A DNA stretch of 64,000 nucleotides from Desulfovibrio sp. (GTDB taxonomy: Bacteria; Desulfobacterota; Desulfovibrionia; Desulfovibrionales; Desulfovibrionaceae), in contig NZ_JAVESS010000004.1 in assembly GCF_034006445.1 (NCBI RefSeq), positions 1-64,000 on the forward strand. The letters are read 5' to 3'. The notes below the pieces were generated by a model that was not told the DNA's origin, ran no database searches, and saw nothing but the letters and a program-made list of their open reading frames with translations. A program made the position numbers and the translations under genes. The first letter of the stretch is position 1. The number at the start of each line of letters is the position of its first letter. Below, in pieces: positions 6,924-56,275 of this stretch.

Positions 6924-7015
6924 AGTATATTTGCCTAAGTTTTTTTTGGTGTGAAGCAGTTCCAAAAAAGTTGCCCTGAAAAAATAAAACAGAACATGCG
7001 CCCACCTTCACAGTA

Positions 7016-9124: not shown

Positions 9125-9375
9125 GCCCGGCTCCTCCTCCAAAGATATCACTGGAGTGGATGTTAAACACATACAACTACAGGCTGATTGCCGCCTAATT
9201 GCCAAATATCGCAATAAAATAATTTTCCTCAAGCACTTTTGCCGCAGATCACACTGAAAAATTACCTACCTCAGAATCGCAGCGATCTTGTGAGCACCCC
9301 ATAACACAGACAGCAAGCACTGGTGATAACCCAATCCTTACACTGAAAAGCCGTATTCAAAAAGATTGCCTGTGG

Positions 9376-12300
9376 CTACGACTTTACCATCGGTTGGATC
9401 CGGCAGGGGACCACGGCCACATCGCCATCAGCGCAGGCCAGGGACAGCACGCTTTCAAAAAAAGCATCGCCGCGCGTTTCTTGCGGCCAACATGCTTTCA
9501 GTAAAGCACTTTTTCGAAACAACACTTCTGCATATAGGGGGAAAATCTTTCCAGATTTTTTATTGAAGTATTGTAAAAAATCTGCCCCATTAATCTTTAT
9601 AGTATGATTTTCGCAAAGACCTGATACGCCATGCTGCTCCAACAAAGAAGACTTCAGTGTGCAAGCCACGGACGTATCCACAAAGGGCGGCCGCAGCAAA
9701 CGTGGCGTCAGAGGATCGACCCCCTCTGACGGGACGACGAGCCAGATGTATTCACCCCTGGCTTGTGAAAGGGCTGCGGCAAGATAGGTAGTCCCGGCGT
9801 CTTCACTGATACCGCGCGCAGCAGCAAGGTGTTTGTGACAAATCTTTTCCGCCCCCGCGGGAACGAGCACTTCCATCGGGTACGGCGATTGCGCCTGCGC
9901 ACGGCGTATCGTACTCAAAAAATTCTCATTAACGTCAGGCGACAACACAATAACACTGATCTCTACTGCATCACGAAGCTTGATTTGCGCTTGGCGCAAC
10001 ATGTGCGTGCAGGACTCTTTTTGGCAACTGATTGGATTATAAAGCTGCCATTGAAGCAGAGGCGCATGGATGTTTTCTGCTCTCCAAACCTTGCCTTCTT
10101 CTGACTCCAGCAAGACTGGGGGTATAGAGGCATCACAATATATGACGCCTGAACTTATCATCATAATACCTGATGTTTGGTCGTGTGTCAGGGTTTGCGT
10201 AGCAACCACGCTAAGAGCAAAGTTTAGATAGCCGGATGCAGCAAAGAGTTGTTTGATGGTTGAGACGTCTGCGTTGTTCAGGCAGGACAACAACGGGGCC
10301 AACCCCCTGAACGTCCCAGTGGAATGAACGGGTTTGGGCACGAAAACCACAGGGCTGCAGACTGGCGCCACCCTGTTTGCCTGCAACAGACTTTCAAGCC
10401 AGTCTGCCTGATCCCGATTTTCCATATCGCAGATAAAAAGCACATGGGGCAGCCCTGCATCACAAGTAATGGCTTGAGCCGTGGCGTTCAACACAGCAAA
10501 TCCCTGTCGGGCGTCCGGCTCAAGATAAGCCCCTTCAGCCCACTCGTTCCATGCATTGATAGCTATATACTTTTCTCCACCATACGTATCCTGTTCTGCA
10601 AGACCAGACGTTTTTTCCAGCCATGAACTGTACCCTTCAGGAGTGGCGCCAACAAAAAACTTGCCTGTTTCGCTTCTGGCCGAGTTGTCCCAACCGGGCA
10701 TAACACCCCGAAATTTCACAGAGCCGGAAGGGTGCCTTGTCGCGTTTATAAAAAAATCACGTGCTTCGGTATAGCTGTATACAGCTCCCGAATAGTCGAG
10801 CCTGGTGATGGATGAAGCCATGTTATTTGTGGTGATGCCAAACGGAGGAAATTCAATTGTGCCATCAAATCCATAACGTTTTGACTGAGCCGGTGTATTT
10901 TCAAAAGAGAGAACCGAAAAAATAAATATCTCTCCAATACCTTCTAGTCGGCAATATTCGCGCCAACGTTGAAGTGTGGAAGCCACATCCGGCAACAAGC
11001 CCGGCCTGTATATTCCAAGCATTGGCTTGCCCTGAAACCTGATATACCTTCGATCCCGTAATGCCCAAGAAATATCATGAATGAAGTCGAGGTCATCTTT
11101 CGGCGAATGCTGCTGCGCAATAATAACATCCTGACTCCCGCCGTCCCATCGCCTCGTCCATGCTTCATTGGCCCAGCTTAAACAAAAAGGAAAGTCCAAA
11201 TCGCTGTTTTGGCGCAAGTGCTCCAAAGGCGCACGGAGAACCGCCTGGCCAGCAAACCAATAATGATGCAATATAAATCCATATATTCCAGCATGTTTTG
11301 CCAGAAACATCTGCTCTTGCATTGTCTCTTTACGCCGCAGGTCATAAAAACCCAAAGCCCCAGGCAAACAAGGCTGCTGGTGCCCCGCAAATCTTGGTCG
11401 CGCTGCGGCCACATTGCTCCATTCCGTAAATCCCAAACCCCAGGCCGCATCGTTTTCGCCAATGGGGTGAAACTGTGGAAGATACCATGCCAGAAGGCGC
11501 ACACTGTCATTGGGCAAAGCCGCATCACGCAATGCTTCATATTCCCTTGAATAATTACGCAATACTATTTCAGGCTTCTTGTACAATGCCCCTTGCTCTT
11601 TACCTTTTGTGACATAATGCAATAAAGGGTTCTCATTAGTCTCTTTTAACTCTGGATACTGTTTTTGATAAAAAACAACATCAAAATCGGGATTTGGAAG
11701 TCTCCCCTCTGCATACCCATAAGACATATAATGATCAAACGCTGATATCCCTGCTTCTTTTACATCAGGATACAAATCGTAATAGAAATTTTCATCAACT
11801 AACGCGGTTAAGGAAGCAATAAGCTTATCTTCTTTTTTTTGGGGGGGAGATACCAATATTGAAGCACTGGCAATGCTATTATGCGTCTTGCACTGGGAGC
11901 CACTCGCGTATAGCGTCCAGCCTGCTCCCGCAGCCATAAGATTTTCGTTAAAGGGCGCAGGGCGGTCGGCCCATCGAGACGTAAACGCCTTGTCGTCAAG
12001 CCATCTGCCGCATGTGCGCGCCTTTCTGTCATCAAGCTGCATAAATCCCGCAAAGGGCCACCATACGGTGCGCTGCCCTTGTTCGCCAAGTCGCAGGCAG
12101 TAATCCGGCAGAGAAGCATGCGGCAGTGAGGCATCAAGGCCCCCCATGCCAGCAAGCGTTTCAGCACGCGTAAAAAGACACATATCATCCAGGGCGTCCA
12201 CGGTTCTTGCTGATTTAGCCCAGTTGAACCAACCAGGTTCATTGCACAAAAGCCCCTGAAGTACCGGGGCAAGCTTGCCGCTTGCATCCGCGAGATAGCC

Positions 12301-14862: not shown

Positions 14863-15206
14863 CCAGCCTCCAGAGGATTCGTGAGTGGATAAAGCTACAC
14901 CCGCAAGCAGGCGAGCTCTCATAGGAGCAATACTGCGCGCCTATGTATATTGCATACTCCATCATCAGAAGTCCACATGGGGATATGCGTCCATTGCTGA
15001 TCTCATGCTCTAATGAACTCGCAAAAGTTGCGGCGGCCTCCCACCGGGGACGCCGCCGCAACGCATGGAACAAACATGCAAAAAACTCACCCGCCGCCAT
15101 CGGCCATCCGCACCAGCAAAACTACTTTCGCGCCATAATATTTTCATTTCCAGAGGAACGGAAACAATTGCGACGACGGGTAACTGCTTTGCCGTGCTGG
15201 CCCGCC
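14863..15206. other. 344-bp gene-free gap
   Basis: No gene. It contains the minus-strand hairpin terminator at 15027-15062 and the upstream region of the large glycosyltransferase. I see no clear -35/-10 pair. Confidence 0.5.
15027..15062 (-). terminator. Rho-independent terminator of the OsmC-family gene
   Basis: Read on the minus strand, GTTGCGGCGGC and GCCGCCGCAAC form a perfect 11-bp stem followed by TTTTGC. It lies about 145 bp after the OsmC-family stop codon. Confidence 0.6.
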
Positions 15207-38284: not shown

Positions 38285-38409
38285 TAGAGCATTTAACACT
38301 TGAAATGCTCGCGTACGGCAGGCAAAAGCCCGCCTACTCGCATTTCGTGGCAAGGATTTTCAGAAAAATCCTTGCAGAGCATTTAACTCATTTCATTCGT
38401 AAACTGCTC
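38285..38409. repeat. dispersed structured repeat family P, copy 2
   Basis: AGAGCATTTAACACTTGAAATGC through GTACGGCAGGC, TCGCATTTCG, the GCAAGGATTTTC/AAAATCCTTGC hairpin and AGAGCATTTAACTCATTTCAT. It is almost identical, in inverted orientation, to the copy at 49646-49768. It begins right at the ribosome-binding region of lplA. The rest of the gap to 38662 shows no gene, only G-rich (GGGGGGGGGAA) and C-rich runs. Confidence 0.8.
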
Positions 38410-43493: not shown

Positions 43494-43547
43494 TAAGCGT
43501 TTTTGTAGCACCAACGCATGATCCAACAATATCTTCCCGGGGGAAAT

Positions 43548-44504
43548 ATGCATCTCCGCAAACGTATACTTGTTACAGGCGGTTCAGGCTTTCTGGGTTC
43601 TCACCTGTGTGAAAGACTGCTCAACGAAGGCCACGAGGTTCTCTGCCTGGACAACTTTTTTTCCAGCGCCCGCGCCAATGTTGAAGAATTCCTCGACAAC
43701 AGAAGGTTTGAACTCATCCGCCATGATGTGACCTTTCCCCTCTACGTGGAAGTGGACGAAATCTACAATCTGGCCTGCCCGGCCTCGCCCATACACTATC
43801 AGCACGACCCCGTGCAGACCATCAAGACCTGCGTTCACGGGGCCATCAACATGCTGGGCCTGGCCAAGCGGCTCAAGGCGCGCATCTATCAGGCTTCCAC
43901 CAGCGAAGTGTACGGCGACCCCGAAATCCATCCGCAGCCCGAGGACTACTGGGGCCACGTGAACCCCAACGGCATCCGCTCCTGCTACGACGAAGGCAAG
44001 CGTTGCGCCGAAGCCCTGTTTTTCGCCTACTGGCGTCAGGGCGGCCTGCCCATCAAGGTGGGACGCATCTTCAACACCTACGGCCCCAAGATGCACCCCA
44101 ACGACGGGCGTGTGGTGTCCAACTTCATTATCCAGGCGCTCAAGGGCGAAGCCATCACCATTTACGGCGATGGCAGCCAGACGCGCTCCTTCTGCTATGT
44201 GGATGATCTCATCGAATGCATGGTGCGCTTCATGGCCTCGCCGGAAGATTTCATCGGCCCCATGAACATGGGCAACCCCGGTGAATTCACCATCCGCGAA
44301 CTGGCTGAAAAGGTTGTGGAAATGACAGGCAGCAAATCGGTCATCAGCTACGAACCGCTGCCCTGCGACGACCCCAAGCAGCGCAAGCCCGACATCACCC
44401 TTGCCCGTGAAAAACTGGGCTGGGAGCCTCAGGTCAAGCTCGAAGACGGCCTGAAAAAAACCATTGCGCACTTTGAGGATATGCTGAAACAGGGCATGGC
44501 CTAA
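43548..44504 (+). CDS. UDP-glucuronate decarboxylase (UDP-xylose synthase), extended SDR
   Basis: Converts UDP-glucuronate to UDP-xylose, a precursor of surface glycans. 318 residues. Rossmann motif [19 protein letters not shown] near the start, then [19 protein letters not shown] (typical of the UXS family), the active-site [11 protein letters not shown] (Tyr-x3-Lys, about residues 146-156), and [19 protein letters not shown]. The ATG at 43548 has GGGGGA 4 bases upstream; an in-frame ATG at 43518 is the alternative. Only 25 bp separate it from the Hyf-like cluster. Confidence 0.92.
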
Positions 44505-44529: not shown

Positions 44530-46578
44530 ATGACGCTCTTTATCATAACCCTGCTCATCCTGGCGGCCGCAGCCGCCGGAACGGCACTGCTGGCTTTTTT
44601 GCCGCCAACGGCGGGCAATGGCCGCGCCGCCAACCTGCTGGGCTCCTGCGGAGCCGCAGCAGGTTGCGTGGCTGGCCTGTGCGCCCTGGCGTTTTCCCCC
44701 TGGAGCGAGGCTGTCTCGTTAAGCCTGCCATGGGGACTGCCCATAGGAGCCTGTACCCTGGGGCTTGACCCCCTGAGCAGGGTCTTCCTGCTGCCGGTCT
44801 TTGGGCTGGGTTTTGTATGCGCCATTTCCGGCGGCATTGCCCTGCGCCATGAGCAGTCGCAGGAGCACAACCTGGCAGCCCACTGGTTCTTCTATCTGCT
44901 GCTGCTTCTGGGCCTGGCGCTCGTCATGGCCGCACGCGATGCCGTGCTCTTCATGCTGTCGTGGGAGCTCATGTCTCTCGCGCCCTTTTTTCTCATCGAC
45001 TTTAACGACGGCGACCGTAAGGTGCGCGACGCTTCATGGGTCTACCTTGTGGCGGCCCATCTTGGCGCGGTGGCCCTCATGGCCTTTTTTGTCCTGCTCT
45101 GGCAAAGCACGGGCACCACGTCCCTTGATGCCCTGCAAGGCGGCGGCGTCATGCTGGGAGTGGTGCGCGACGCTGGCCCCCACGTGCTGACGGCCCTTTT
45201 TGTGCTGGCTGTTCTGGGCTTTGGAGCCAAGATGGGCCTTGCGCCCATGCACGTCTGGCTTCCGGAAGCGCACCCGGCCGCCCCCAGTCACGTGTCTGCC
45301 CTGCTTTCGGGGGCCATGATCAACGCTGGCCTTTACGGCATCATCCGCAGCCTGGGCATGCTGGCCACTCCGGGCGCAGCCCCCGAATGGTGGGGCTGGG
45401 CCTTGTTGCTTGTGGGCCTGGGCACGGGCCTCATGGGTATTTTAAAAGCTCTGGGGCAGAGCAACCTCAAACGCCTGCTGGCCTATTCCAGCGTTGAAAA
45501 CATGGGCCTCATGCTCATGGGCGTGGGTGCGAGCCTTATTGGCCTTTCCTGCGGCAACGCCTGGATTGCGACCCTGGGCCTGGCAGGCTGCCTCATGCAC
45601 ATGCTGAATCACGCAGGCTTCAAGGGGCTGCTTTTTCTGTGCGCGGGCGAAGTGCTGCACGCCACGGGCACGGTGCGTATGGGACTGCTCGGCGGATTAC
45701 AGAAGCGCCTGCCGCTGCTGGGCGCGGCCTTTGCCCTCGGCGCGGCCGCCATTGCCTGTCTGCCGCCGCTCAATGGCTTTGCGGGCGAACTTGTGCTGGC
45801 GCTCTCCCTTCTGGACGGCCCCGCCCTTCCCGGCCTTGAACGCCAGGTAGGGCTTCTGCTGGCGCTGGTGGGCCTCGCCCTCATCAGCGGACTTGCGGCC
45901 GCCCTTTACGCCAAGGCTTACGGCATCACCTTTCTTGGCGAGCCCCGCACCGGTTTTGCGGCCAATGCGCGCCCTCTGGGCTGGAAGACCCTCTGGCCTC
46001 TGGCGCTGCCCGCCGCCGTCTGCGTGATTGGCGGGCTGGCGGCTCCGATGTTTTTTGACCTTGCCTCCATGACGGGCCTTGCCGCGCTGCCCATGCCCAA
46101 CGACATGCAGGCCGCAGCCGCAGCAGGGCAGGATCAGGCACGCACCAGCCTCGCCATGGTGTCGCTGGTGTGTTCCATCGCCCTCGGGCTCTCCCTCGCG
46201 GGCATTATCCTGCGCAAAAGAATGCTCCGGCGGCGCAGCGTGACGTCCATGCCCACATGGGGCTGCGGCTACCAGGGCGGTTCGGCGCGCATCCAGTACA
46301 CGGATGCCGGATTCTCCGAACCGCTGGGCAAAATTTTTGCGCCGGGCATGGGGCTTAACGTGCGCATGAACCTTGATTCCCGTCTGTTTCCCCAAAGCGG
46401 TTCCCTGAGCGTCTCTGCGCCGGACCGCCTGCGCAACGGCTTTTACACCCCCCTGTTCGAGGCTGTGGAACGCTTGTGCAATGCCTGCAAAATCATACAG
46501 CACGGCAAGATCCACCTCTATATCCTGTATATCCTCGCCACTGTGGTGGGCCTGCTTATCTGGGGGCTGAGCGCATGA
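44530..46578 (+). CDS. hyfB: HyfB-like proton-antiporter subunit of an Ehr/Hyf-type complex
   Basis: A 682-residue membrane protein of the Mrp-antiporter/NuoL family with about 15 or more helices. The key charged residues of the ion path are in FMLSWELMSLAPFFLI (Glu) and GFGAKMGLAPMHVWLPEAHPAAPSHVSALLSG (Lys and His, about residues 238-268), then LKRLLAYSSVENMGLMLMG. In hydrogenase-4 and Ehr complexes this subunit translocates H+ or Na+. It is first of six genes in one direction (44530-52556), and its end overlaps the next gene by 4 bases. Follows the UDP-glucuronate decarboxylase by 25 bp without a visible promoter. Confidence 0.9.
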   Translation: MTLFIITLLILAAAAAGTALLAFLPPTAGNGRAANLLGSCGAAAGCVAGLCALAFSPWSEAVSLSLPWGLPIGACTLGLDPLSRVFLLPVFGLGFVCAISGGIALRHEQSQEHNLAAHWFFYLLLLLGLALVMAARDAVLFMLSWELMSLAPFFLIDFNDGDRKVRDASWVYLVAAHLGAVALMAFFVLLWQSTGTTSLDALQGGGVMLGVVRDAGPHVLTALFVLAVLGFGAKMGLAPMHVWLPEAHPAAPSHVSALLSGAMINAGLYGIIRSLGMLATPGAAPEWWGWALLLVGLGTGLMGILKALGQSNLKRLLAYSSVENMGLMLMGVGASLIGLSCGNAWIATLGLAGCLMHMLNHAGFKGLLFLCAGEVLHATGTVRMGLLGGLQKRLPLLGAAFALGAAAIACLPPLNGFAGELVLALSLLDGPALPGLERQVGLLLALVGLALISGLAAALYAKAYGITFLGEPRTGFAANARPLGWKTLWPLALPAAVCVIGGLAAPMFFDLASMTGLAALPMPNDMQAAAAAGQDQARTSLAMVSLVCSIALGLSLAGIILRKRMLRRRSVTSMPTWGCGYQGGSARIQYTDAGFSEPLGKIFAPGMGLNVRMNLDSRLFPQSGSLSVSAPDRLRNGFYTPLFEAVERLCNACKIIQHGKIHLYILYILATVVGLLIWGLSA

Positions 46579-47516
46579 AACAGGACATGGCCGTTTATGC
46601 CGCGCAGTTTGTTCTGGCGCTTGTTCTTGCCCCCCTGCTGCCCGGCATCATCAACCGGGTAAAGGCCAAGTTTGCGGGCAGGCACGGCAAGCCCATCCTG
46701 CAGACCTACTATGACCTTGCCAAACTCATGCGCAAGGGCGAGGTGGTCAGCCACACCACCACCTGGGTTTTCGCCTGCGGTTCCGCCGTGTCCCTGGCCG
46801 CGACCTTGTGCGCCATAGCCCTGCTGCCCCTGGGCGGGGCCACCTCGCCCCTGGCCTTCACCGGCGACTTTATTCTTGCGGCCTATCTGCTGGGCATGGG
46901 GCGCTTTGCCATCATGCTCTCCGCCATGGACACTGGCTCGGCCTTTGAAGGCATGGGCGCCAGCCGCGAGGCCACCTTTGCCGCCCTGGCCGAACCGCTT
47001 TTCTTTCTGGCGCTTCTGGTGCTCACCAGCGTGACGCTGGATATGGGGCGCGGCCCGCACACGGCCTTTTCGCTCTCATCCCTGTTTGGCGGGCAGATCG
47101 CCGGGGCATGGGCCATGGGCCGGGGCGAACTGCTGCTCCTGCCCTGCATCTTCTTTATTCTGCTGCTGGTGGAAAACTGCCGCATTCCCGTGGACGACCC
47201 CAACACGCACCTGGAACTGACCATGATCCACGAGGTCATGGTGCTGGATCACTCCGGCCCCAACCTGGCCATGGTCGTCTACGGGGCTGCCCTCAAGCTG
47301 TGGTTTTTCGCCGCGCTTATTGCCGGTCTCATGACCCCGGCCCTGCCTCTGTGGCAACAGGCAGCACTGCGTATTACCACGGTGCTGCTGCTGGCCGTTA
47401 TCGTGGGCATTGTGGAATCTGTCATGGCCCGTCTGCGCATGGACCGCGTGCCCTTTCTGCTGGGCAGCGCGTCGGCCATGGCGGCCCTGGCCCTCATCCT
47501 GACCCAGGCGAGGTGA
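46575..47516 (+). CDS. hyfC: HyfC-like membrane subunit (NuoH homologue)
   Basis: A 313-residue polytopic protein of the NuoH/HycD/HyfC family, which links the electron-transfer arm to the ion-pumping subunits. Conserved segments are GKPILQTYYDLAKLMRKGEV (about residues 36-55), AMDTGSAFEGMGASREATFA (about 115-134) and ENCRIPVDDPNTHLELTMIHEVM (about 202-224). The ATG overlaps the hyfB stop (ATGA). Confidence 0.93.
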   Translation: MKQDMAVYAAQFVLALVLAPLLPGIINRVKAKFAGRHGKPILQTYYDLAKLMRKGEVVSHTTTWVFACGSAVSLAATLCAIALLPLGGATSPLAFTGDFILAAYLLGMGRFAIMLSAMDTGSAFEGMGASREATFAALAEPLFFLALLVLTSVTLDMGRGPHTAFSLSSLFGGQIAGAWAMGRGELLLLPCIFFILLLVENCRIPVDDPNTHLELTMIHEVMVLDHSGPNLAMVVYGAALKLWFFAALIAGLMTPALPLWQQAALRITTVLLLAVIVGIVESVMARLRMDRVPFLLGSASAMAALALILTQAR

Positions 47517-47520
47517 AAGC

Positions 47521-48144
47521 GTGGAAACCGCACTGCAAAGCTGCCTGTTTTTGCTCATGCTGAACAATCTGCTCATGCTGGGCTCAACACGGATCATGTG
47601 GCTCATACGCTTCACGGCCTTTCAGGGCATTCTGCTGGCTGGCATGCTGCTGACCATGGAACACGCCCTGCTGGCCGCCGCCGTGCTGCTCATCAAGGGG
47701 GCGCTCTTGCCAGGCCTGCTCTGGCGCACCCGTAACCGCCTGCATTCCCACCACCGCATGCGGCCCCGCATGCACGTGGCCGTCGGCGTACTGGCCGGCA
47801 TGGGGGGGCTTGTGCTCTCCCTGTGGCTTGAAGCGCGGCTGTTCACCCTGCCCGCTCTTTTTCCGCCGCTGCTCTTGCCCACGGCCCTGACCACACTGTT
47901 TTGCGGACTTATCCTGGTGGTGGGGCGCACCACGGCCCTGGCCCAGGTCATCGGGTATCTGGTGGCGGAAAACGGCATCTTTCTGCTGGGCATGCCGCTC
48001 ATGACCGCCGGAACCACGTGGTTTGAGCTTGCCCTGCTGCTGGACGTGTTTGTGGCTGTTTTCGTTATGGGCATTGCCATCAACCATATTGGCAATACCT
48101 TTGAATCCATTGACGTTGGCCGCTTTCGCAGCCTCAGGGATTGA
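47521..48144 (+). CDS. hyfE: HyfE-like membrane subunit
   Basis: A 207-residue hydrophobic protein of the HyfE/NuoK-like family. It contains LAQVIGYLVAENGIFLLGMPL (about residues 140-160), whose membrane-embedded glutamate is typical of NuoK-like subunits, and ends with NTFESIDVGRFRSLRD. The start is a GTG 4 bases after hyfC, with GAGGTG as ribosome-binding site. Confidence 0.9.
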   Translation: METALQSCLFLLMLNNLLMLGSTRIMWLIRFTAFQGILLAGMLLTMEHALLAAAVLLIKGALLPGLLWRTRNRLHSHHRMRPRMHVAVGVLAGMGGLVLSLWLEARLFTLPALFPPLLLPTALTTLFCGLILVVGRTTALAQVIGYLVAENGIFLLGMPLMTAGTTWFELALLLDVFVAVFVMGIAINHIGNTFESIDVGRFRSLRD

Positions 48145-48149
48145 CGGCC

Positions 48150-49643
48150 ATGCTGGAAGCCTTGCTTTTTCTTCCGCTTGGGGCGGGCTGCATCATCCTG
48201 CTCGGCACCAAGGCCATGTGCCGGGTTCTTCTGCCCCTGACCGCCCTCGGTCATACGGCTCTGGCCGCCTGGACGACGTATGCCGTCGGCACGGGAGCCG
48301 AACCCAGAGCCATGAACGGCCTGCTGGCCCCCGATCCGCTTGGAGCGCTTTTTCTCATGCTGGCCAGCCTGCTTTTTCTGGCGGCTTCCATATATGCGGT
48401 CTACTACCTGCGAGAGGAAGACCGGCTGGAAGTGCATGCGGACATCCACGGCGGCCCCGGCTTTACCAACGCGCCCCAGCGACGCCTTGCCGCCTGCCTG
48501 TGCTTTTTTCTTTCATCCATGACGCTTGTGACCACCACGCCCCATCTGGGCGCTTTGTGGGTGGGCATAGAAGGCACCACCCTTTCCAGTGCGCCGCTCA
48601 TCTATTTTCACAGGCACCAGCGCTCACTTGAGGCCACGTGGAAGTACCTTATCATCTGCTCCGTGGGCATTGCCCTGGCCATGGTGGGCAACATTCTGCT
48701 TTCCGTGGCCTTCTACACGCCCGAAGGCATGACAGCCATGGTGGAAGGCATGGATCAGCTCGGCTGGTTTGTCAGCCACGCCCGTGCCGGTGAAGAAACC
48801 TGGCTCAAGGCGGCCTATATCTTTCTGCTGGTGGGCTATGGAACCAAGATGGGCCTGGCCCCCCTGCACAACTGGCTGCCCGACGCCCACAGTCAGGCTC
48901 CCTCACTGGTGTCTGCCCTGCTCTCCGGCGCACTGCTCAACTGCGCCCTGCTTGGCATTTTGCGCGGACACCAGATCATGCTGGCCGCCGGACTTGGCGG
49001 CTTCAGCGGCGGGCTGCTCAGCTTTTTCGGCCTGATCTCGCTTGTCACGGCAGCCATCTTCATTGTGGGGCAAGGGCACTACAAGCGCATGCTGGCCTAC
49101 TCCAGCGTGGAACATATGGGCATTCTGGCCCTGGGCATAGGCGTGGGCGGCCTGGCCGTATCCGGAGCCATGCTGCACGCCGTCTGCCATTCGCTGACCA
49201 AGTGCATGCTCTTTCTGCTTTCCGGCAATATTCTGGCCCGCTACCACACCTTTTCCAGCTATGACGTCCGGGGCATGCGCTGGACCATGCCCATAACCGG
49301 AGCCTTATGGATGGCCGGTTTTCTGGCCGTGGCCGGTTCGCCGCCCTTCGGCATCTTCATCAGCGAATTCATCATCTTCAAGGGCATGCTGGCGGCGGAC
49401 TCACCTCTGCTGGCCGCAGCCTATCTGCTGGCCCTTGCCGTGATTTTTGTCGGTCTTTCCGTGGCGGTTCTGCGCATGGTGCAGGGCAACCGCCCCACAG
49501 ACATGCCCCAGACCCTGCGGGAACCGCTGCTGAGCGTGCTGCCGCCCCTGGTTCTGGGGCTGGCCGTGCTTACCCTTGGCTTGTGGATACCCGACTGGCT
49601 TTGGAATTTCTTGCGCAAGGGCGCTGCCCTCGTCGGCGGATAG
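48150..49643 (+). CDS. hyfF: HyfF-like proton-antiporter subunit
   Basis: A second antiporter-like subunit (NuoN/HyfF type), 497 residues. Ion-path residues are in ALWVGIEGTTLSSAPLIYF (Glu) and YGTKMGLAPLHNWLPDAHSQAPSLVSALLSG (Lys), and YKRMLAYSSVEHMGILALG follows. The start is most likely the ATG at 48150, just past the hyfE stop; an overlapping TTG at 48141 is less likely. A P repeat lies between this gene and the next (49646-49768), which is unusual inside an operon. Confidence 0.9.
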   Translation: MLEALLFLPLGAGCIILLGTKAMCRVLLPLTALGHTALAAWTTYAVGTGAEPRAMNGLLAPDPLGALFLMLASLLFLAASIYAVYYLREEDRLEVHADIHGGPGFTNAPQRRLAACLCFFLSSMTLVTTTPHLGALWVGIEGTTLSSAPLIYFHRHQRSLEATWKYLIICSVGIALAMVGNILLSVAFYTPEGMTAMVEGMDQLGWFVSHARAGEETWLKAAYIFLLVGYGTKMGLAPLHNWLPDAHSQAPSLVSALLSGALLNCALLGILRGHQIMLAAGLGGFSGGLLSFFGLISLVTAAIFIVGQGHYKRMLAYSSVEHMGILALGIGVGGLAVSGAMLHAVCHSLTKCMLFLLSGNILARYHTFSSYDVRGMRWTMPITGALWMAGFLAVAGSPPFGIFISEFIIFKGMLAADSPLLAAAYLLALAVIFVGLSVAVLRMVQGNRPTDMPQTLREPLLSVLPPLVLGLAVLTLGLWIPDWLWNFLRKGAALVGG

Positions 49644-49645
49644 GG

Positions 49646-49768
49646 CGTTTTACGAATGAAATGAGTTAAATGCTCTGCAAGGATTTTTCTGAAAATCCTT
49701 GCCACGAAATGCGAGTAGGCGGGCTTTTGCCTGCCGTACGCGAGCATTTCAAGTGTTAAATGCTCTAG
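49646..49768. repeat. dispersed structured repeat family P, copy 3, inside the hyf-like cluster
   Basis: Inverted relative to the copy at 38285-38409 and nearly identical to it. It starts 2 bp after the hyfF stop and could form a long hairpin (GCAAGGATTTTT/AAAATCCTTGC with flanks) in the polycistronic transcript. Confidence 0.8.
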
Positions 49769-49849
49769 GGCTTTTTGCCCTGAAAAGGGGTAGTTGGCCC
49801 AAGGCTGCATGCGTGTGTAACGCGCCGCAACAGGGCGTGGTTTTGCCGC

Positions 49850-49916
49850 AAATCGTATTTTGGCAGAATCACAACGCTGAAATGTGAAGCATTTCAAAGG
49901 TAATCTGGTCTGGGAG
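49850..49916. repeat. partial R1 repeat, inverted, next to the hyfG ribosome-binding site
   Basis: Read on the minus strand, the sequence matches the first half of R1 copy 3: CCAGA, then GATTACCTTTGAAATGCTTCACATTTC, then ATTCTGCC and AATACG. The remaining hairpins are missing. The ribosome-binding site GGGAGG of hyfG lies at its edge. Confidence 0.65.
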
Positions 49917-49922
49917 GATATC

Positions 49923-51782
49923 ATGTCGTTCGACTACCGCGAGGCGGTTGATCTGAAAAGCCTGGCGCGCTTCTCCGTGACTGAACTGCGTGACCACCTG
50001 CGTCACGCCATGGCAGGCGGCTGGCGCGTGCTGGCCTTTTTCGGCATTCCCGACGAAGACGCGACACAAGCCGTGTCCGGCCAGCCTGCATCCGGCCAGC
50101 CTGCATCCGGACAGCCCGTGCCCGTCAGCCTGTGCTGCGTGCTGGCCCATGACGGCACGCGCCGTCTCATGGCCCGACGTACGCCGCCGGTGACGGCCTT
50201 TGTGTCGATGACGCCCGATTTGCCCCAACTGCACTACTTCGAACGCGAAATTTACGAACAATGGGGCGTGGAGCCCGTGGGACACCCCTGGCTCAAAAGC
50301 GTGCGGCGCACTCCCGACACCTTCGAGGCCCAGACGCGCAACGCTGCGGCTGCGGCTGGCGCCAATGTTTCGGGCGCCAATGCTTCTGGCACAGACGTTT
50401 CTGGCACAGACGTTTCTGGAGCAGACGCTTCAGGCGCAAATACGTTAGGTGCGGAATCCGCCGTCCCGCACGAAGCCGCGCCAGCGACTGCCCCGAAGGA
50501 TACTGCAATCCCGACGTCCCCTGCCCAGCCCTACCCCTTTTACCGGGTTGAGGGCGTGGACGTGCATGAGGTGGCCGTCGGCCCTGTTCATGCGGGCATC
50601 ATCGAGCCGGGGCATTTCCGTTTTCAATGCTATGGCGAAAATGTGCTGCATCTTGAAATTGCCCTGGGTTACCAGCACCGGGGGCTGGAGAACATGCTTG
50701 TTCACGGCCCTGCCGCCCGCCGCCTTCCCCTGCTGGAATGCGCAGCCGGAGATTCCACGGTGGCCCACGCCACAGCGCACTGCGTCGTGCTTGAGCGCAT
50801 GAAAGGGCAGCAGCCTGACGAGCGCTCCCAGCTTGTGCGCCGTATCGGCCTTGAGCTGGAGCGTCTGGCCAACCATACGGGCGACCTTGGAGCCATTGCC
50901 GGGGACACGGGCTTTTTGCCCACAGCCTCCTGGAACGGCCGCATTCGCGGAGATTTTCTGAACATGACCGCCAGCCTGTGCGGCAACCGCTTCGGACGCG
51001 GCCTGCTGCGGCCCGGCGGCGTGGCCCATGACCTCAGCCCGCAGGAATGCGAGGATCTGCTCGGCCGCGTGCGGGCGGCCTGGCAGGGCGCGCGCGGCTC
51101 TGTGGACGTCATGCTGGATGCCGTGACCGTGCGCAACCGTCTTGCAGAAACCGGCTCGGTGGAGCCCGCCGTGGCCCGCGAACTGGGACTGGTGGGTGTA
51201 GCTGCCCGCGCCTGCGGTCTGGACGTGGACGCGCGCTTTCACATGCCCCTCAGCGACCTTTCCTGCGAGAATTGCGCCCCACGGCTGGAGATCACGGGGG
51301 ACGTCATGGCGCGCACCTGCGTGCGCAGCCGCGAACTGGACGACAGCCTGAGGCTGCTTGAGCTTGACCTCACCCGTCTGGCGGCCCTGCCCTGTCAGCC
51401 CAATCAGCCCAGTCAAAAAGGCGAAACGCCCACCTGCGCCGCGTCCGCAGGCCATGCCACCCCGGCCCATGCGGCACCCGCACGAGCGACCCCGCCCCAA
51501 ACGACCCCGGCGACGGCCGGGCACGAGTCCGGCGGCCCGGCCACCGACTTTACGGCCCTGCCGCCGCACACCCTCGCCGTGGCCCAGGTGGAAGGCTGGC
51601 GCGGCGAAGTCTGCCATGTGGCGCTTACCGATTCGCGGGGCCAGATACTTGTGTACAAGGTGATAGACCCCTCCTTCCACAACTGGACCGGGCTGGCCGT
51701 GGCCCTGCGCGGCAACCAGATTTCAGACTTTCCTCTCTGCAACAAGAGCTTCAACCTCTCTTATTGCGGGCACGACCTGTAA
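49923..51782 (+). CDS. hyfG: HyfG-like large subunit without Ni-Fe ligands (NuoC-NuoD-like fusion)
   Basis: 619 residues. The N-terminal NuoC-like domain (about 1-125) ends with LHYFEREIYEQWGVEPVGHPWLK. A low-complexity Ala/Ser/Gly/Thr linker follows (about 140-185), then the NuoD/large-subunit domain, which begins VAVGPVHAGIIEPGHFRF. In HycE/HyfG the metal is held by RxCGxC and, near the C-terminus, DPCxxC. Here the first site reads ECAAGDSTVAHATAH (Ala275 and Ser278 at the cysteine positions), and the second reads FNLSYCGHDL (Ser613 and Gly616). The subunit therefore cannot bind Ni-Fe in the usual way, like the Ehr complexes. A second Pro/Ala/Thr-rich insertion lies near 505-545. GGGAGG is 5 bases from the ATG. 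Confidence 0.88.
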   Translation: MSFDYREAVDLKSLARFSVTELRDHLRHAMAGGWRVLAFFGIPDEDATQAVSGQPASGQPASGQPVPVSLCCVLAHDGTRRLMARRTPPVTAFVSMTPDLPQLHYFEREIYEQWGVEPVGHPWLKSVRRTPDTFEAQTRNAAAAAGANVSGANASGTDVSGTDVSGADASGANTLGAESAVPHEAAPATAPKDTAIPTSPAQPYPFYRVEGVDVHEVAVGPVHAGIIEPGHFRFQCYGENVLHLEIALGYQHRGLENMLVHGPAARRLPLLECAAGDSTVAHATAHCVVLERMKGQQPDERSQLVRRIGLELERLANHTGDLGAIAGDTGFLPTASWNGRIRGDFLNMTASLCGNRFGRGLLRPGGVAHDLSPQECEDLLGRVRAAWQGARGSVDVMLDAVTVRNRLAETGSVEPAVARELGLVGVAARACGLDVDARFHMPLSDLSCENCAPRLEITGDVMARTCVRSRELDDSLRLLELDLTRLAALPCQPNQPSQKGETPTCAASAGHATPAHAAPARATPPQTTPATAGHESGGPATDFTALPPHTLAVAQVEGWRGEVCHVALTDSRGQILVYKVIDPSFHNWTGLAVALRGNQISDFPLCNKSFNLSYCGHDL

Positions 51783-51791
51783 GGCTCTACC

Positions 51792-52556
51792 ATGCTGCAC
51801 ATAATCAAGGAACGCATCCGCCAGAAATACCGCACGCTGGACTACCCCCGCCAGCAGCCCGTACTTTCGCCCAGATTTATGGGCAGGCCCAGCCTCACGC
51901 CCGTGAACTGCGGCGGCTGCACGGCCTGTTACGCGGCCTGCCCCACAGGAGCCCTGCTGCCCACCGAGGGCGCGCCCGACAGCACGCCCACCCTGGATAT
52001 GGGGCGCTGCACCTTCTGCGGCGCGTGCCGCCAGGTTTGCCCCCAACAGGCCATAGCCTTTACCGGCGAGCACCGCATGGCGGTTTTCAGGCGTGAAGAC
52101 CTGCTGGTGGTTCCCGGCCAGCCGGCCCCGCAGGCGGCCACACCTTCCACCCCCGGCAAATTCTCCCTCTTCCGGCGTTCGCTCAAGCTGCGCCAGGTCA
52201 GCGCCGCAGGCTGCAATGCCTGCGAGGCGGACTGCAATGTGCTTGGCACCCTGGTCTTCGACCTGCCGCGCTTTGGTATTGATTTTGTGGCCTCGCCACG
52301 CCACGCCGACGGCATTCTGGTAACAGGGCCTGTTTCTGAAAACATGCGCCTGGCTGTCATGGACACCTACGACGCCATACCCGAACCGCGCCTTGTGGCG
52401 GCGGTGGGGGCCTGCGCCATATCGGGCGGGCTTTTCCGCAACGGGCCGCAGTGCAACAACGGCATTACCGACATGCTGCCAGTGGACCTTTTTGTGCCCG
52501 GCTGCCCGCCCAACCCCTGGACCATCCTGGACGGCCTGCTGGCGCTGCGCAGGTAA
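51792..52556 (+). CDS. fused ferredoxin-like / small subunit (HyfH-HyfI type)
   Basis: A 254-residue fusion. The N-terminal half has two complete [4Fe-4S] motifs, NCGGCTACYAACPTGA (about residues 38-53) and CTFCGACRQVCPQQAI (about 73-88). The C-terminal half is the NuoB/HycG-like small subunit with GCNACEADCNV (about 140), VTGPVSENM, VGACAISGG and VPGCPPNPW, which supply the four ligands of one [4Fe-4S] cluster. In E. coli hydrogenases these are separate proteins (HyfH, HyfI). It would carry electrons from a ferredoxin-type donor to the large subunit. It starts 9 bp after hyfG and a T element follows its stop by 37 bp, so the cluster ends here. Confidence 0.9.
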   Translation: MLHIIKERIRQKYRTLDYPRQQPVLSPRFMGRPSLTPVNCGGCTACYAACPTGALLPTEGAPDSTPTLDMGRCTFCGACRQVCPQQAIAFTGEHRMAVFRREDLLVVPGQPAPQAATPSTPGKFSLFRRSLKLRQVSAAGCNACEADCNVLGTLVFDLPRFGIDFVASPRHADGILVTGPVSENMRLAVMDTYDAIPEPRLVAAVGACAISGGLFRNGPQCNNGITDMLPVDLFVPGCPPNPWTILDGLLALRR

Positions 52557-52682: not shown

Positions 52683-54044
52683 CTACTTGCCGTCGCCCAG
52701 TTTGGAGAGCAGCGTCTTGCGGTTGATGCCCAGACGCCGCGCGGCTTCGCTCTTGTTGCCGCCGACCTGCTCAAGGGTATCCTGCACGGCCAGGCGCTCG
52801 ATTTCTTCCAGCGTCATGTTGGCAAAGTCCAGCCTGGACGAACGCGGGCTTTCCTCTTCGGCATCGGCAATGGTGGGCGGCAGTTCGCGCTCGCTGATGT
52901 ATTCCCCCACCAGCAGCACAACGGCGCGCTCCACGGCGTTTTCCAGTTCGCGCACGTTGCCGGGCCAGGTGTGCTTGACCAGCCTGTCCATGGCCGCAGG
53001 GGTGAAGCCCTTGACCATCTTGCCGTTGCGGTCGGCAAAAATCTTCATGAAGTGCATGGCCAGCAGGGGGATGTCCTCATGCCGGTCACGCAGGGGCGGC
53101 AATTGCAGGGAAACCACGTTGAGCCTGTAGTAAAGATCCTGCCGGAAGCGCCCCTCCTCCACCTCAAGGGCCAGATCCTTGTTGGTGGCGGCCAGGATGC
53201 GCACATCCACCTTGATGGTCTGATCGCCGCCCACACGTTGCAGTTCGCGCTCCTGAATGACGCGCAACAGCTTGACCTGCATGGACAAGGGAATCTCGCC
53301 AATTTCATCCAGAAAGATGGTGCCCTTGTTGGCTGCCAGAAAGCGCCCCTCACGGCGTTTTTCCGCTCCGGTAAAGGCCCCTTTTTCATGGCCGAACAGT
53401 TCGGATTCCAGCAGGGTTTCCGTCAGGGCCGCGCAGTTGACGGCCACATACGGCCCCTTGGCCCTGTTGCTGTTGGCGTGGATCAGCTTGGCGATGACCT
53501 CCTTGCCCGTGCCGGATTCACCGGTGATGAGCACCGTGGCCTCCGAGGCCGCAATGGCTGAAACCAGGCCCAGCACCTGGCGCATGGCAGGACTCTGGCC
53601 AATGACGTTGCGGGAATCCACGTTGGCGGCCAGTTCGTGACGCAGGGCGCGCACCTCGTCGCGCAGATTGGCGTGATCCAGCGCGCGCTCCAGCGCCAGC
53701 TTGAGGGCGTCAAAGGCCAGAGGCTTGGTGAGGTAGTCGTAGGCTCCGGCCTTGAGGGCTTCCACCGCGTTGGCCACATCGGAGTACGCCGTCATGATCA
53801 GCACGGGGATGGCGGGATTGTAGCTCTTGATGGCGCGGGTGGCCTCAATGCCGTTCATGCCCCCCATCCTCACGTCCATGAGGATGAGGTCAAAGGGGTT
53901 TTCCTGGCACATGGCCACGGCCTCTTCCCCATTGTCCACTGTAACGGGGTCATAGCCCCACTCTTCCAGCAGGGCCCGGAGCATTTCGCGGTGGTTGCGG
54001 TCGTCGTCCACCACCATCAGTCTGACAGCTGAAGTCGCACTCAT
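52683..54044 (-). CDS. sigma-54-dependent response regulator (ZraR-like)
   Basis: A 453-residue NtrC-family activator. Receiver domain with the phosphorylated Asp57 in DLILMDVRMGG; AAA+ sigma-54 domain (about 150-385) with GESGTGKEVIAKLIH (Walker A), GHEKGAFTGAEKRREGRF (the sigma-54-binding GAFTGA loop) and GTIFLDEIGEIP (Walker B); Fis-type helix-turn-helix at the C-terminus, GGNKSEAARRLGINRKTLL. AAGGA precedes the ATG at 54044. It lies downstream of its kinase on the same strand, and the pair is divergent from an operon with a perfect sigma-54 promoter, the likely target. Confidence 0.93.
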   Translation of the reverse strand: MSATSAVRLMVVDDDRNHREMLRALLEEWGYDPVTVDNGEEAVAMCQENPFDLILMDVRMGGMNGIEATRAIKSYNPAIPVLIMTAYSDVANAVEALKAGAYDYLTKPLAFDALKLALERALDHANLRDEVRALRHELAANVDSRNVIGQSPAMRQVLGLVSAIAASEATVLITGESGTGKEVIAKLIHANSNRAKGPYVAVNCAALTETLLESELFGHEKGAFTGAEKRREGRFLAANKGTIFLDEIGEIPLSMQVKLLRVIQERELQRVGGDQTIKVDVRILAATNKDLALEVEEGRFRQDLYYRLNVVSLQLPPLRDRHEDIPLLAMHFMKIFADRNGKMVKGFTPAAMDRLVKHTWPGNVRELENAVERAVVLLVGEYISERELPPTIADAEEESPRSSRLDFANMTLEEIERLAVQDTLEQVGGNKSEAARRLGINRKTLLSKLGDGK

Positions 54045-54126
54045 GACAATATTCCTTGATCGTTCTGGTTGATAACCAGCGCAGGGTAACAATACTACTA
54101 TTTATTCAAATGGTTGCGGCGCGCTT

Positions 54127-54188
54127 TTCACGGCTGGCGGCGTGCAGACAAAGTGCGCGCCCTTCACGGCTGGCGGCGTGCGGACAAA
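54127..54188. repeat. 26-bp direct repeat between kinase and regulator
   Basis: TTCACGGCTGGCGGCGTGC followed by RGACAAA occurs at 54127-54152 and 54163-54188, with one mismatch and a 36-bp period. It lies in the 158-bp gap between the kinase stop and the regulator start, outside both genes. Confidence 0.75.
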
Positions 54189-54202
54189 CTGCTCCTGGGC
54201 CG

Positions 54203-56275
54203 TCACGCCGAAAAGGCTGCATCCCTGCCGCGAACAGGCAGCACAAGGATGAACTCCGTGCCGTGCCCCGGATCGGAATTGACGCTCACGCTGCCGCCGT
54301 GCCCTTCGACAATCTGGTAGACAATGGCCAGCCCAAGGCCCGTGCCCGAAGGCTTTGTGGTAAAATAGGGCGTAAAGATGGCCGCCTGAATGTCCCTGGG
54401 AATACCGGGGCCATTGTCGCGGACAGAAAGGCTGAAGCTTTGCCCGTCAGGCGACAGACGCGCGCCCACGTGCAGTTGCCCCCCCTCGCCCATGGCCTGC
54501 ACGGCATTGAGAAAGAGGTTGAGCAAAGCCTGGGTGAGGCGTTCAACATTGACCCGTACCGGAGGCAGATCAGGGGCCACGTCAAGGGTGACCTGTATGT
54601 TTCTGGCGCGCACATCGGCTTCGGTCAGACGCAGTGCCCGGTTGATGATTTCGGCCAGATCGGCGTCCGTGGTGTTGATGGCTCCGGGCCGGGCGAATTC
54701 CAGCAGTTCGGAGACGACCCTGTCCAGCCTGTCCACTTCATCAATCATGCGCTGGGCGGCTTCCTCTTCACGGCCGCCGGGCAGCATGCGCTTGGCTATG
54801 TAGAGGGCCACGCCCTTGATGGTGCTCAAAGGATTGCGCACCTCGTGCGCCACACCGGCGGCCAGATGGCCCAGAGCCGACAGGCGGTCGTTGCGCTGCG
54901 CGTCTGCCTGCAGGCGTTTGACCTCGGTAATGTCGCGCAGAATAAACACATTGCCCAGAAAAACGCCGTCCTGATTGCGCATGCTGGCGGCACTGAGGCT
55001 GATGACCGCGCCCGCGCGTCCTGTGGTGAGGACGCATTCGCGCTCAAGCACCTTGCGGCCTCCGGCCAGTTCCGCCACCAGCGCCTTCCAGTCCAGACCC
55101 GGCAACCCGGTCAGAGGCGCGTACACGGCCGTATCCCGGACAAGGTCGAACATGCGCAGGGCAGTGTCGTTGACCATGGCCACCCTGCCCGAAGGATCGC
55201 TGGTCAGAAGGCCCAGAGGCAGATTGGCCACCACTTCTGAAGCCATGGCCCGCGAATCGCGCAGCATCTTGCGTGAATGGCGGTAATTCTGCGCCCAGAA
55301 CAGGGAGACAAAGCCCGCAAGACCCAAAGCCGCCACCAGAGCCGCCGACATGGCGTTGTAGCGCAGATCCGCCGCCAGGGCCGCCTCAAAAGGTTTGAGA
55401 TCAAGTCCTACCACGACCACGCCCTGTGGTTGCCGTGGCTGGCCCGGATGCAGTAGGGCAGATGGCCAGGGGTTGCCGTCGCCCCACATTCCGGCATGGG
55501 GCGGCGGTGGCCTCAAGCCCGGCTGCAGGCCGCCCGCAACGCCCGGCATGCCTGGCCCTGCGGCCTGAGGCTCTGGCTGGAACTGTGGCTCCATCCTTCT
55601 GGGCGACATGGGGCCATGGGGCATATCCACGCCCATCATGCCCCTGCTGCGGCCCATGTTGTGCTGCCCGTGCCCGCGCGTGGGCAATGGCATGGGGCGA
55701 TCATCTTCCAGCGGCACAAAGGCCCGGTATACCTCAAAAACCTTTCTGTCGCCCCACTGGCGCAGACGCCATGCGGGCTTTTCCGTCACCTGCACCGCCG
55801 TGGGCATGATGATGGCCAAAGACTTTTCGCCCTGCTGCGCCTGCGCGGCAGCCCTGCCATCGCCGCCTGCTCCCGGCCCGGATGAAGAAATCTCGTCATT
55901 GCCCCGGCTTTTGTGGCGGGTGCGCACCGGCACGCTGTAGGCCAGCATTTCGCCCGCATTGTTGGCCACAGCCATAAAAACAATGCCGGGCTGCTTGGCT
56001 GTTTCCGCCAGCAGGGACTGCAGGCCGTCCGAATTGCCCAGGGGAGTGCACAAACCCGTGCGCGCGCCCGCCTCCAGAGCCCATATGAGGGCCTCGGCCC
56101 GGTCCAGAAGATTCTGTATCATATATGTCTTGCCGCGCTGGTTGCTGCGCACGGCAAGGGCTGAAATGGTCAGACCGAGAATGATGGCCATGCCCATAAT
56201 CATCCAGGGCGAAAGCCCCAGATGCAGGGCGCGCACCCCTCTGACGGAAAATATTCTTGAAAATCTGCTCTTCAT
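54203..56275 (-). CDS. sensor histidine kinase with Met/His-rich periplasmic domain (ZraS-like)
   Basis: A 690-residue membrane kinase. Transmembrane helix 1 (about 24-43, WMIMGMAIILGLTISALAV), a large periplasmic domain (about 44-307), helix 2 (about 308-330), a PAS domain (about 345-450), HisKA with LSALGHLAAGVAHEVRNPLS (phosphorylated His near 475), and HATPase_c with NLFLNAVQAMGEGG, DNGPGIP and GTGLGLAIV. Within the periplasmic domain about 195-275 is rich in Met, His, Gly and Pro (GHGQHNMGRSRGMMGVDM, PHAGMWGDG), which suggests metal binding (Zn, Cu or Ag; inferred). Partner is the regulator at 52683-54044. Confidence 0.92.
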   Translation of the reverse strand: MKSRFSRIFSVRGVRALHLGLSPWMIMGMAIILGLTISALAVRSNQRGKTYMIQNLLDRAEALIWALEAGARTGLCTPLGNSDGLQSLLAETAKQPGIVFMAVANNAGEMLAYSVPVRTRHKSRGNDEISSSGPGAGGDGRAAAQAQQGEKSLAIIMPTAVQVTEKPAWRLRQWGDRKVFEVYRAFVPLEDDRPMPLPTRGHGQHNMGRSRGMMGVDMPHGPMSPRRMEPQFQPEPQAAGPGMPGVAGGLQPGLRPPPPHAGMWGDGNPWPSALLHPGQPRQPQGVVVVGLDLKPFEAALAADLRYNAMSAALVAALGLAGFVSLFWAQNYRHSRKMLRDSRAMASEVVANLPLGLLTSDPSGRVAMVNDTALRMFDLVRDTAVYAPLTGLPGLDWKALVAELAGGRKVLERECVLTTGRAGAVISLSAASMRNQDGVFLGNVFILRDITEVKRLQADAQRNDRLSALGHLAAGVAHEVRNPLSTIKGVALYIAKRMLPGGREEEAAQRMIDEVDRLDRVVSELLEFARPGAINTTDADLAEIINRALRLTEADVRARNIQVTLDVAPDLPPVRVNVERLTQALLNLFLNAVQAMGEGGQLHVGARLSPDGQSFSLSVRDNGPGIPRDIQAAIFTPYFTTKPSGTGLGLAIVYQIVEGHGGSVSVNSDPGHGTEFILVLPVRGRDAAFSA

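Follow-up and report, generated by a model that had tools for sequence, protein, structure and literature searches.

Energy-converting or Ech hydrogenase-related (Ehr) complexes combine a Hyf-, Ech- and Nuo-like set of membrane and hydrophilic genes with a large subunit that is related to group 4 Ni-Fe hydrogenases and lacks their CxxC ligands. Such complexes, without Ni-Fe motifs and of unknown function, are described in Sulfobacillus (PMC4378227), comammox Nitrospira (PMC10284858) and ammonia-oxidising archaea (PMC10432482). Ehr complexes without the motifs also occur in Margulis- and Saganbacteria, and a pairing of formate dehydrogenase with Ehr was proposed for Riflemargulisbacteria and Saganbacteria (PMC6349859). 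In Geobacter, the subunits EhrA-1, EhrC, EhrL and EhrS correspond to GSU0739-45, their role having never been investigated according to PMC7894505, and Ehr was raised in syntrophic coculture (PMC8691401). A published exception is Desulfotomaculum ruminis, whose six-gene Ehr cluster reportedly still has the four Cys (PMC3569383). For Ehr in Desulfovibrio, our literature search gave one further paper, in which the sole mention of ehr is in a list of methanogen genes. We analysed a stretch of 64,000 nucleotides from Desulfovibrio sp. (contig NZ_JAVESS010000004.1, positions 1 to 64,000; hereafter the window), in which the open reading frame (ORF) list contains an Ehr cluster of six collinear plus-strand genes at 44530-52556.

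Judged by its genes and their alignments, the window complex is almost certainly a bona fide Ehr complex. A first-pass annotation, made from the DNA letters alone, had read the cluster as a Hyf/Ehr type with the gene order B, C, E, F, G, I and a large subunit that has lost its Ni-Fe ligands. All six ORFs are indeed in place by Pfam and NCBIfam matches, the last gene being a fusion that spans both the H and the I part, and the NCBIfam cut-offs for hydrogenase-4 are not reached by the cluster genes. In a quick tree with a long stem and 7 reference rows, in which EhrL of G. sulfurreducens itself is not included, the 81 Ehr rows fall together on one side of a branch with a Shimodaira-Hasegawa-like approximate likelihood ratio (SH-aLRT) of 100. 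The window EhrL stands there with members from Geobacter argillaceus and Geomonas, apart from hydrogenases and NuoD, which bears out the Ehr assignment. Its best solved relative is HycE (7z0s_E, 9e-70), and no entry named Ehr occurs among the 54 PDB sequences at 1e-20. We found no difference in kind between the window complex and other Ehr complexes; it is an ordinary member of a family that is present in at least 14 named phyla of this sample. The idea that it is unusually compact is not supported, as 70 of the 80 relatives have all six core families together in a single span and a six-gene cluster is also reported for D. ruminis (PMC3569383). Its peculiarities are Ala-rich inserts in EhrL, a repeat-bearing gap of 280 bp, a UDP-xylose synthase (UXS)-like neighbour and, compared with many Ehr, a regulator gene (described below) that was not found in the genome.

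Conservation was assessed in two sets of relatives, the best 120 of 8000 scored database candidates for the large subunit and 81 cross-phylum large subunits, that is, 80 named loci plus the window. Of 573 confirmed candidates, the best 80 became the named loci, which leaves distant Ehr under-sampled; they were retrieved via the patterns HAG[VI]IEPG or SDFPLCNK. Conservation at positions 223-230 and 601-608 is therefore partly built in, whereas positions 275-278 and 609-619 fall outside both patterns; all residue numbers of EhrL are counted from ATG 49923. The Ni-Fe ligands C241, C244, C531 and C534 of E. coli HycE align with A275, S278, S613 and G616 of EhrL, the same replacements that had been noticed in the translation. 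The window EhrL has no Cys at any of the four positions, C615 lying one place off, so that the refuting condition named in the first-pass annotation, other Cys at the ligand positions, was checked and not observed. D277, S613 and G616 are identical in 120/120 relatives of the first set. In the second set, position 275 is Ala in 74, Ser in 5 and Cys in 2 large subunits, 276 is Gly and 277 Asp in all 81, and 278 is Thr in 69, Ser in 9, Ala in 2 and Val in 1. In the tail, S613, Y614 and G616 occur in all 81, while position 615 is Cys in 77 and Ala in 4. No sequence of this set has more than one of the four ligand Cys. Since S613 and G616 are fixed in 120/120 and 81/81, the loss of the ligands is neither chance nor decay.

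We further found that the former Ni-Fe pocket appears to have been rebuilt in a conserved way, which is an addition to what the first-pass annotation described. For comparison we used the residue roles of E. coli formate hydrogenlyase (FHL; PMC9474812). Retained are the Glu of the beta1-beta2 loop (HycE E193; E228 in EhrL, 81/81), the canopy Arg (R560, 81/81) and the proton-path residues H318 (81/81), E471 (81/81) and R429 (80/81). The canopy Asp (HycE D529), an Asp in hydrogenases and complex I, is changed to Asn (N611, 80/81), and Ser283 is likewise replaced by Asn (78/81). D277, K608, Q251, C236 and D321 are fixed in all 81, K608 lying inside a retrieval pattern. A Cys-based substitute metal site was considered and rejected: C606 is Asn in 5/81 and C615 Ala in 4/81, C564 is not Cys in 20/81 and C353 not in 7/81, so that among these residues and C236 only the last is fixed.

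The C-terminus reads SY[C/A]GxD[L/I] in all 80 relatives. EhrL, like these relatives, ends at the position of HycE R537, matching the hydrogenase cleavage site, while HycE continues for 32 residues; a maturation peptidase step would therefore not be needed. The lack of an extension behind the last Cys distinguishes EhrL from HycE, but such an extension is not universal in hydrogenases, as two other large subunits of this genome (C6 and C7) end at CTER. Alanine/serine/glycine-rich inserts at residues ~150-200 and 500-545, which have low confidence in the structure model, are common to the closest relatives (P0003, P0011 and P0016 in alignment A1).

The window EhrS has all twelve cluster Cys, eight of the ferredoxin type and four of the NuoB type, and its CNAC spacing is that of HyfI, in contrast to the tandem CC of both aligned NuoB. 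In the membrane arm, for which we listed residues conserved in at least 93% of sequences (a filter and not a result), HyfB E146, K234, K314 and K365 are present in 68/68 aligned sequences including the window. HyfC E163, E237, E243 and E304 occur in 66/66 and E223 in 65/66 (numbered from 46506), HyfE E150 in 67/69 and E169 in 68/69, and HyfF K236 and K354 in 78/78 and E144 in 75/78. Antiporter-type and NuoH/NuoK-type subunits use acidic and basic residues of this sort. The pump half of the window complex looks intact, its charged membrane residues being conserved, and Ehr may couple a redox reaction to ion translocation.

With confidence and doubt about evenly balanced, we favour the reading that the window Ehr is a ferredoxin-fed ion pump with a rebuilt acceptor site that serves neither H2 nor, probably, quinone; donor, acceptor and ion are what we infer rather than observe. 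A soluble low-potential carrier, probably ferredoxin, would reduce EhrS at its two-cluster ferredoxin domain, and the electrons could then move on to the N2-like [4Fe-4S] cluster in the NuoB-like half of EhrS. They would then reach a small acceptor in the EhrL cavity, in the former place of Ni-Fe. This cavity would be shaped by the AGD loop, by S613 and G616 instead of the second Cys pair, by K608 and by N611 in place of the canopy Asp, with E228, the loop Glu that delivers protons in hydrogenases, being retained. Reduction of the acceptor, which would not be H+ and probably not a quinone, may be transmitted through the acidic chain of HyfC and the Glu/Lys modules of HyfB and HyfF to the export of H+ or Na+. 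No electron partner is encoded in the window cluster. No dehydrogenase was recognised by eye among the neighbours common to at least 2 of the 80 loci, which, within the flanks covered, argues for a soluble donor.

Several observations weigh against this reading. The ferredoxin domain is the sole basis for the donor, and HycF shares this domain, yet FHL is fed by formate dehydrogenase. The ferredoxin Cys of EhrS are not universal, C40 and C43 being present in 63/73 sequences and C83 in 64/73; any single cluster Cys is retained in 63 to 71 of the 73. The structure model of EhrL, built from 28 sequences, has a mean predicted local distance difference test (pLDDT) score of 73.4 and falls below 50 in the tail (residues 604-619) and in the beta1-beta2 loop (217-237), so that pocket geometry is unsupported by the model. 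The direction of electron flow could be reversed. The neighbour analysis keeps the longest ORFs and can thus miss genes. In G. sulfurreducens, all Ehr subunits were higher on formate than under hydrogen-containing conditions, an observation that the authors connect with formate dehydrogenases and with the formation of H2 (PMC7894505). The exclusion of quinone is also incomplete: UbiA-superfamily (PF01040) matches occur in 21 of 22 Ehr-bearing genomes, and a MenD-like match at 1e-3 occurs in 13 of the 14 genomes without MqnA/D-type genes, 2 of them above the cut-off, so that quinone loss is unproven.

A quinone reductase is the strongest of the alternatives, albeit an unlikely one: Ehr would be a pared-down complex I in which menaquinone, at the interface of EhrL and EhrS, receives the electrons of ferredoxin. 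Complex I built its quinone site from the same pocket (PMC9474812), and the Desulfovibrionaceae relatives L013 and L016 carry MqnA/D-type genes. The UbiA matches could also be counted for this alternative, but the PF01040 test is uninformative because the family also matches all 14 control genomes. Against it, the His that complex I has in the beta1-beta2 loop at its quinone site, present in E. coli and in this genome's own NuoD, is Ile (I227) in 81/81, and opposite the NuoD Tyr the alignment has Gly in 81/81. The cluster ligands of EhrS are moreover of the hydrogenase type without tandem CC. The 22 genomes, picked from the 80 loci for breadth, are by title mostly metagenome bins whose completeness is not stated; MqnA/D-type genes were not found in 14 of them, and 12 lack both menaquinone-route markers (MqnA/D-type genes and MenD at its cut-off). 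The test covered this route. The quinone case is thus weakened.

It is improbable that the complex runs in reverse, so that ferredoxin is reduced at the expense of an ion gradient with electrons from a donor in the pocket of EhrL. Enzymes of the complex I/hydrogenase superfamily are reversible, and sequence fixes no direction, but a recurrent donor enzyme was not seen near the cluster. Quite improbable, too, is a variant in which a formate dehydrogenase encoded apart from the cluster associates with EhrS and formate oxidation drives ion pumping. It would agree with the rise of the Ehr proteins on formate in G. sulfurreducens (PMC7894505) and with the pairing proposed for Riflemargulisbacteria and Saganbacteria (PMC6349859). 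However, no formate dehydrogenase was recognised by eye among the neighbour clusters shared by at least 2 of the 80 loci, and the FdhH-type gene of this genome adjoins the genome's own Hyf cluster, where the four Cys are present and a HycI-type protease is encoded. This formate dehydrogenase gene (L012, ~12006-14204) is split by an in-frame TGA, probably encoding selenocysteine.

It is highly improbable that another cluster supplies a Ni-Fe subunit in place of EhrL, or that EhrL is a decaying hydrogenase: the genome encodes five large subunits, namely EhrL, one Nuo type without the Cys and three with CxxC pairs, but the four others each adjoin their own membrane and small-subunit genes (identities by eye), the odd residues of EhrL are fixed across 14 named phyla, and HypD was not found in 7 of the 22 Ehr genomes. 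A separate Ni-Fe subunit, which the first-pass annotation had asked to be checked, is therefore unsupported, within what sequence can exclude. HypD is needed for the Ni-Fe cofactor. The genomes in which it was not found include that of Rectinema subterraneum strain SURF-ANA1 (L056, G149), which is not labelled a metagenome bin in its record, and Ehr is thus apparently independent of Ni-Fe maturation.

FHL and hydrogenase-4 (HycE, HyfG; group 4a) are closest to the window EhrL in solved fold and sequence and share the NuoC-NuoD fusion, E228, the canopy Arg and the hydrogenase-type cluster ligation of the small subunit. Unlike group 4 Hyf and Hyc, the window EhrL lacks the four Ni-Fe Cys and has Asn for the canopy Asp, and the window cluster has neither HyfA/HycB nor a formate dehydrogenase gene, while its HyfH and HyfI parts are fused. 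Respiratory complex I (NuoD/NuoB) belongs to the same superfamily and likewise has a site without Ni-Fe; Ehr differs from it by Ile and Gly at the His and Tyr positions and by CxxC in place of tandem CC, and the window cluster has no NuoEFG. The archaeal MBS/Mbx sulfane sulfur reductase has an altered Ni-Fe site. This enzyme (6u8y) is another superfamily member with a different acceptor (PMC9474812), and in overall similarity it is less close to EhrL than HycE is (1e-28 vs 9e-70).

The only real neighbour that ORF clustering found in more than 3 of the 80 loci is a protein with an N-terminal helix-turn-helix (HTH) domain, HTH_17, and a C-terminal phosphotransferase system (PTS) domain, PTS_EIIA_2. 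Its gene lies in or beside the Ehr cluster in 40 of the 80 loci, in 33 of them at most 1.5 kb upstream on the same strand and in 7 elsewhere in or beside the cluster; at L082, counted among the 33, the upstream match is partial and a full copy lies inside the cluster. The linkage extends across phyla (e.g. L019, L024 and L060; also L126-L134, L136-L157 and L168-L172). A reverse search that used only the regulator as query gave 47 matches at 1e-40, spread over 45 of 297 genomes from the phylum of the window, and Ehr genes lie within ~9 kb in 36 of the 47. Three of the 36 are weaker: L127 and L169 depend on HyfB and HyfC matches at contig ends, and L157 has HyfB adjacent and a large-subunit match of only 127 bits. 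Among matches at 1e-79 or better, Ehr is nearby in 31 of 32, the exception (L135) being cut by a contig end on its downstream side, while ten weaker matches (L158-L167), which may belong to another subfamily, have no Ehr nearby. The phosphorylatable His of PTS_EIIA_2 is retained in 69 of 73 aligned sequences. The HTH-EIIA gene was not found in the window genome at 1e-3 or in the relatives L013 and L016 (G167, G168) at 1e-10, whereas 14 of the 22 genomes have a match to the same model at 1e-60, five of them having contributed rows to it. In one genome of the same family as the window (G029) it lies just downstream of EhrS. A limited literature search found no title on a link of HTH-EIIA to Ehr, which does not show that the link is unpublished. 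The Ehr large subunits of L151 and L153 are divergent (~250 bits) and have the tail FPVNNKSVNGSYSGHDL; they stand beside an HTH-EIIA gene and perhaps form a separate Ehr subtype.

Tentatively, and with more doubt than confidence, Ehr might be seen as a separate energy-converting class, in which the Ni-Fe pocket was turned into a site for a soluble acceptor that is neither quinone nor proton (AGD-T/S loop, K608, N611, S613 and G616), fed by ferredoxin and in many lineages accompanied by a dedicated HTH-PTS EIIA regulator that the window's genus would lack. If this holds, the HTH-EIIA link implies that the pump is set by the phosphoenolpyruvate/pyruvate (PTS phosphorylation) state of the cell. 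The conserved replacements and the HTH-EIIA link single out residues and a point of regulation from which the substrate and the ion could be sought, and they add one more answer to the question of how the superfamily that includes complex I re-uses one pocket. The rebuilt site, the apparent independence of Ni-Fe maturation, the weaker quinone case and an HTH-EIIA partner, for which the window genome gave no match, all go beyond the first-pass annotation, which proved right about the Ehr type, the ligand loss and the missing partner but is not supported on compactness and on the link to the UXS-like gene.

Features of the Ehr cluster and its upstream neighbour in the window
Feature	Coordinates	Strand	Evidence
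UXS-like NAD-dependent epimerase/dehydratase, neighbour outside the complex	43518..44504	+	Pfam Epimerase/GDP_Man_Dehyd; no NCBIfam model above its cut-off
HyfB-like membrane subunit of the antiporter type (resembles NuoL, with an additional C-terminal part)	44530..46578	+	Pfam Proton_antipo_M 1.4e-49; NCBIfam hydrogenase 4 subunit B 1.4e-150, below model cut-off
HyfC-like (NuoH-like) membrane anchor	46575..47516	+	Pfam NADHdh 4.9e-28
HyfE-like membrane subunit	47521..48144	+	NCBIfam hydrogenase 4 membrane subunit 5.2e-14, below cut-off; no Pfam match
HyfF-like antiporter-type membrane subunit	48141..49643	+	Pfam Proton_antipo_M 2.6e-49; NCBIfam hydrogenase 4 subunit F 7.9e-102, below model cut-off
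hyfF-ehrL gap, lengthened, with copies of a dispersed hairpin repeat	49644..49922	.	sequence
EhrL, NuoC-like and NuoD-like large subunit without Ni-Fe ligands	49923..51782	+	Pfam Complex1_49kDa 5.4e-27; Complex1_30kDa only below Pfam cut-off
EhrL former first CxxC, A275-G-D-S278	50745..50756	+	alignment to HycE
EhrL former second CxxC, S613-Y-C-G616, near the C-terminus	51759..51770	+	alignment to HycE
EhrS, two-cluster ferredoxin domain (HyfH/HycF-like) fused to NuoB/HyfI-like domain	51792..52556	+	Pfam Oxidored_q6, Fer4 families

Two gene starts call for a comment: the likely start of the HyfC-like gene overlaps the hyfB stop (ATGA), as judged by eye, and a longer EhrL with a GTG start at 49884 is possible, the ATG at 49923 being the start that aligns with relatives. 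The UXS-like gene had been hinted to be linked to the complex by its short distance. The gap between its stop and the hyfB start does measure 25 bp. At 1e-90, 123 of the 149 genomes of the family have this gene. It lies just upstream of Ehr in 7 of the 8 Ehr-bearing genomes of the genus (in the eighth, G102, the two are on different contigs), and it likewise precedes the cluster in the named Desulfovibrio loci L013 and L015. In a coordinate comparison of the 40 Ehr-bearing family genomes outside the genus, many of them fragmented assemblies, the adjacency occurs in none. We therefore rejected the UXS-like gene as a partner of Ehr, its adjacency being confined to the genus and best read as inherited genus-level synteny.

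The flanks surveyed comprise 3 kb upstream in 48 and 3 kb downstream in 56 of the 80 loci. Neighbour clusters 6-11 and 14 were set aside because their sequences, read by eye, look like antisense ORFs of core genes; in GC-rich DNA the ORF caller is biased towards long ORFs of this kind. Histidine kinases make up clusters 12 and 13 (3 loci each), and clusters 15-39 (2 loci each) contain no dehydrogenase recognised by eye, one pair being nitroreductase-like. Among the single neighbours listed, L092 has an iron-sulfur oxidoreductase-like subunit beside the cluster on the other strand. Downstream of the window cluster, 52683-56275 on the minus strand encodes a sensor kinase (domain matches) and an NtrC-like response regulator (by eye).

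Allowing up to 2 mismatches, the genome has 52 copies of the hairpin repeat with the core TTAAATGCTCTGCAAGGATTTTT, against 0 in the control. Two related copies lie in the hyfF-ehrL gap and another at 38362-38386. In L013-L016 this gap is 2-64 bp long and the repeat core is absent from the loci; the repeat-bearing gap is no part of the mechanism. Elsewhere in the window, a low-GC stretch at 5247-14922 (GC 0.43-0.48 at 6001-12000 vs 0.53-0.66 elsewhere) contains methyltransferase genes and a gene for an 1848 aa protein with WbsX and family 2 glycosyltransferase domains, and resembles a surface-polysaccharide island. Rfam gave a single match at gathering score for the whole window, a 6S RNA (RF00013, 89.1 bits) at 2784-2967 on the minus strand.
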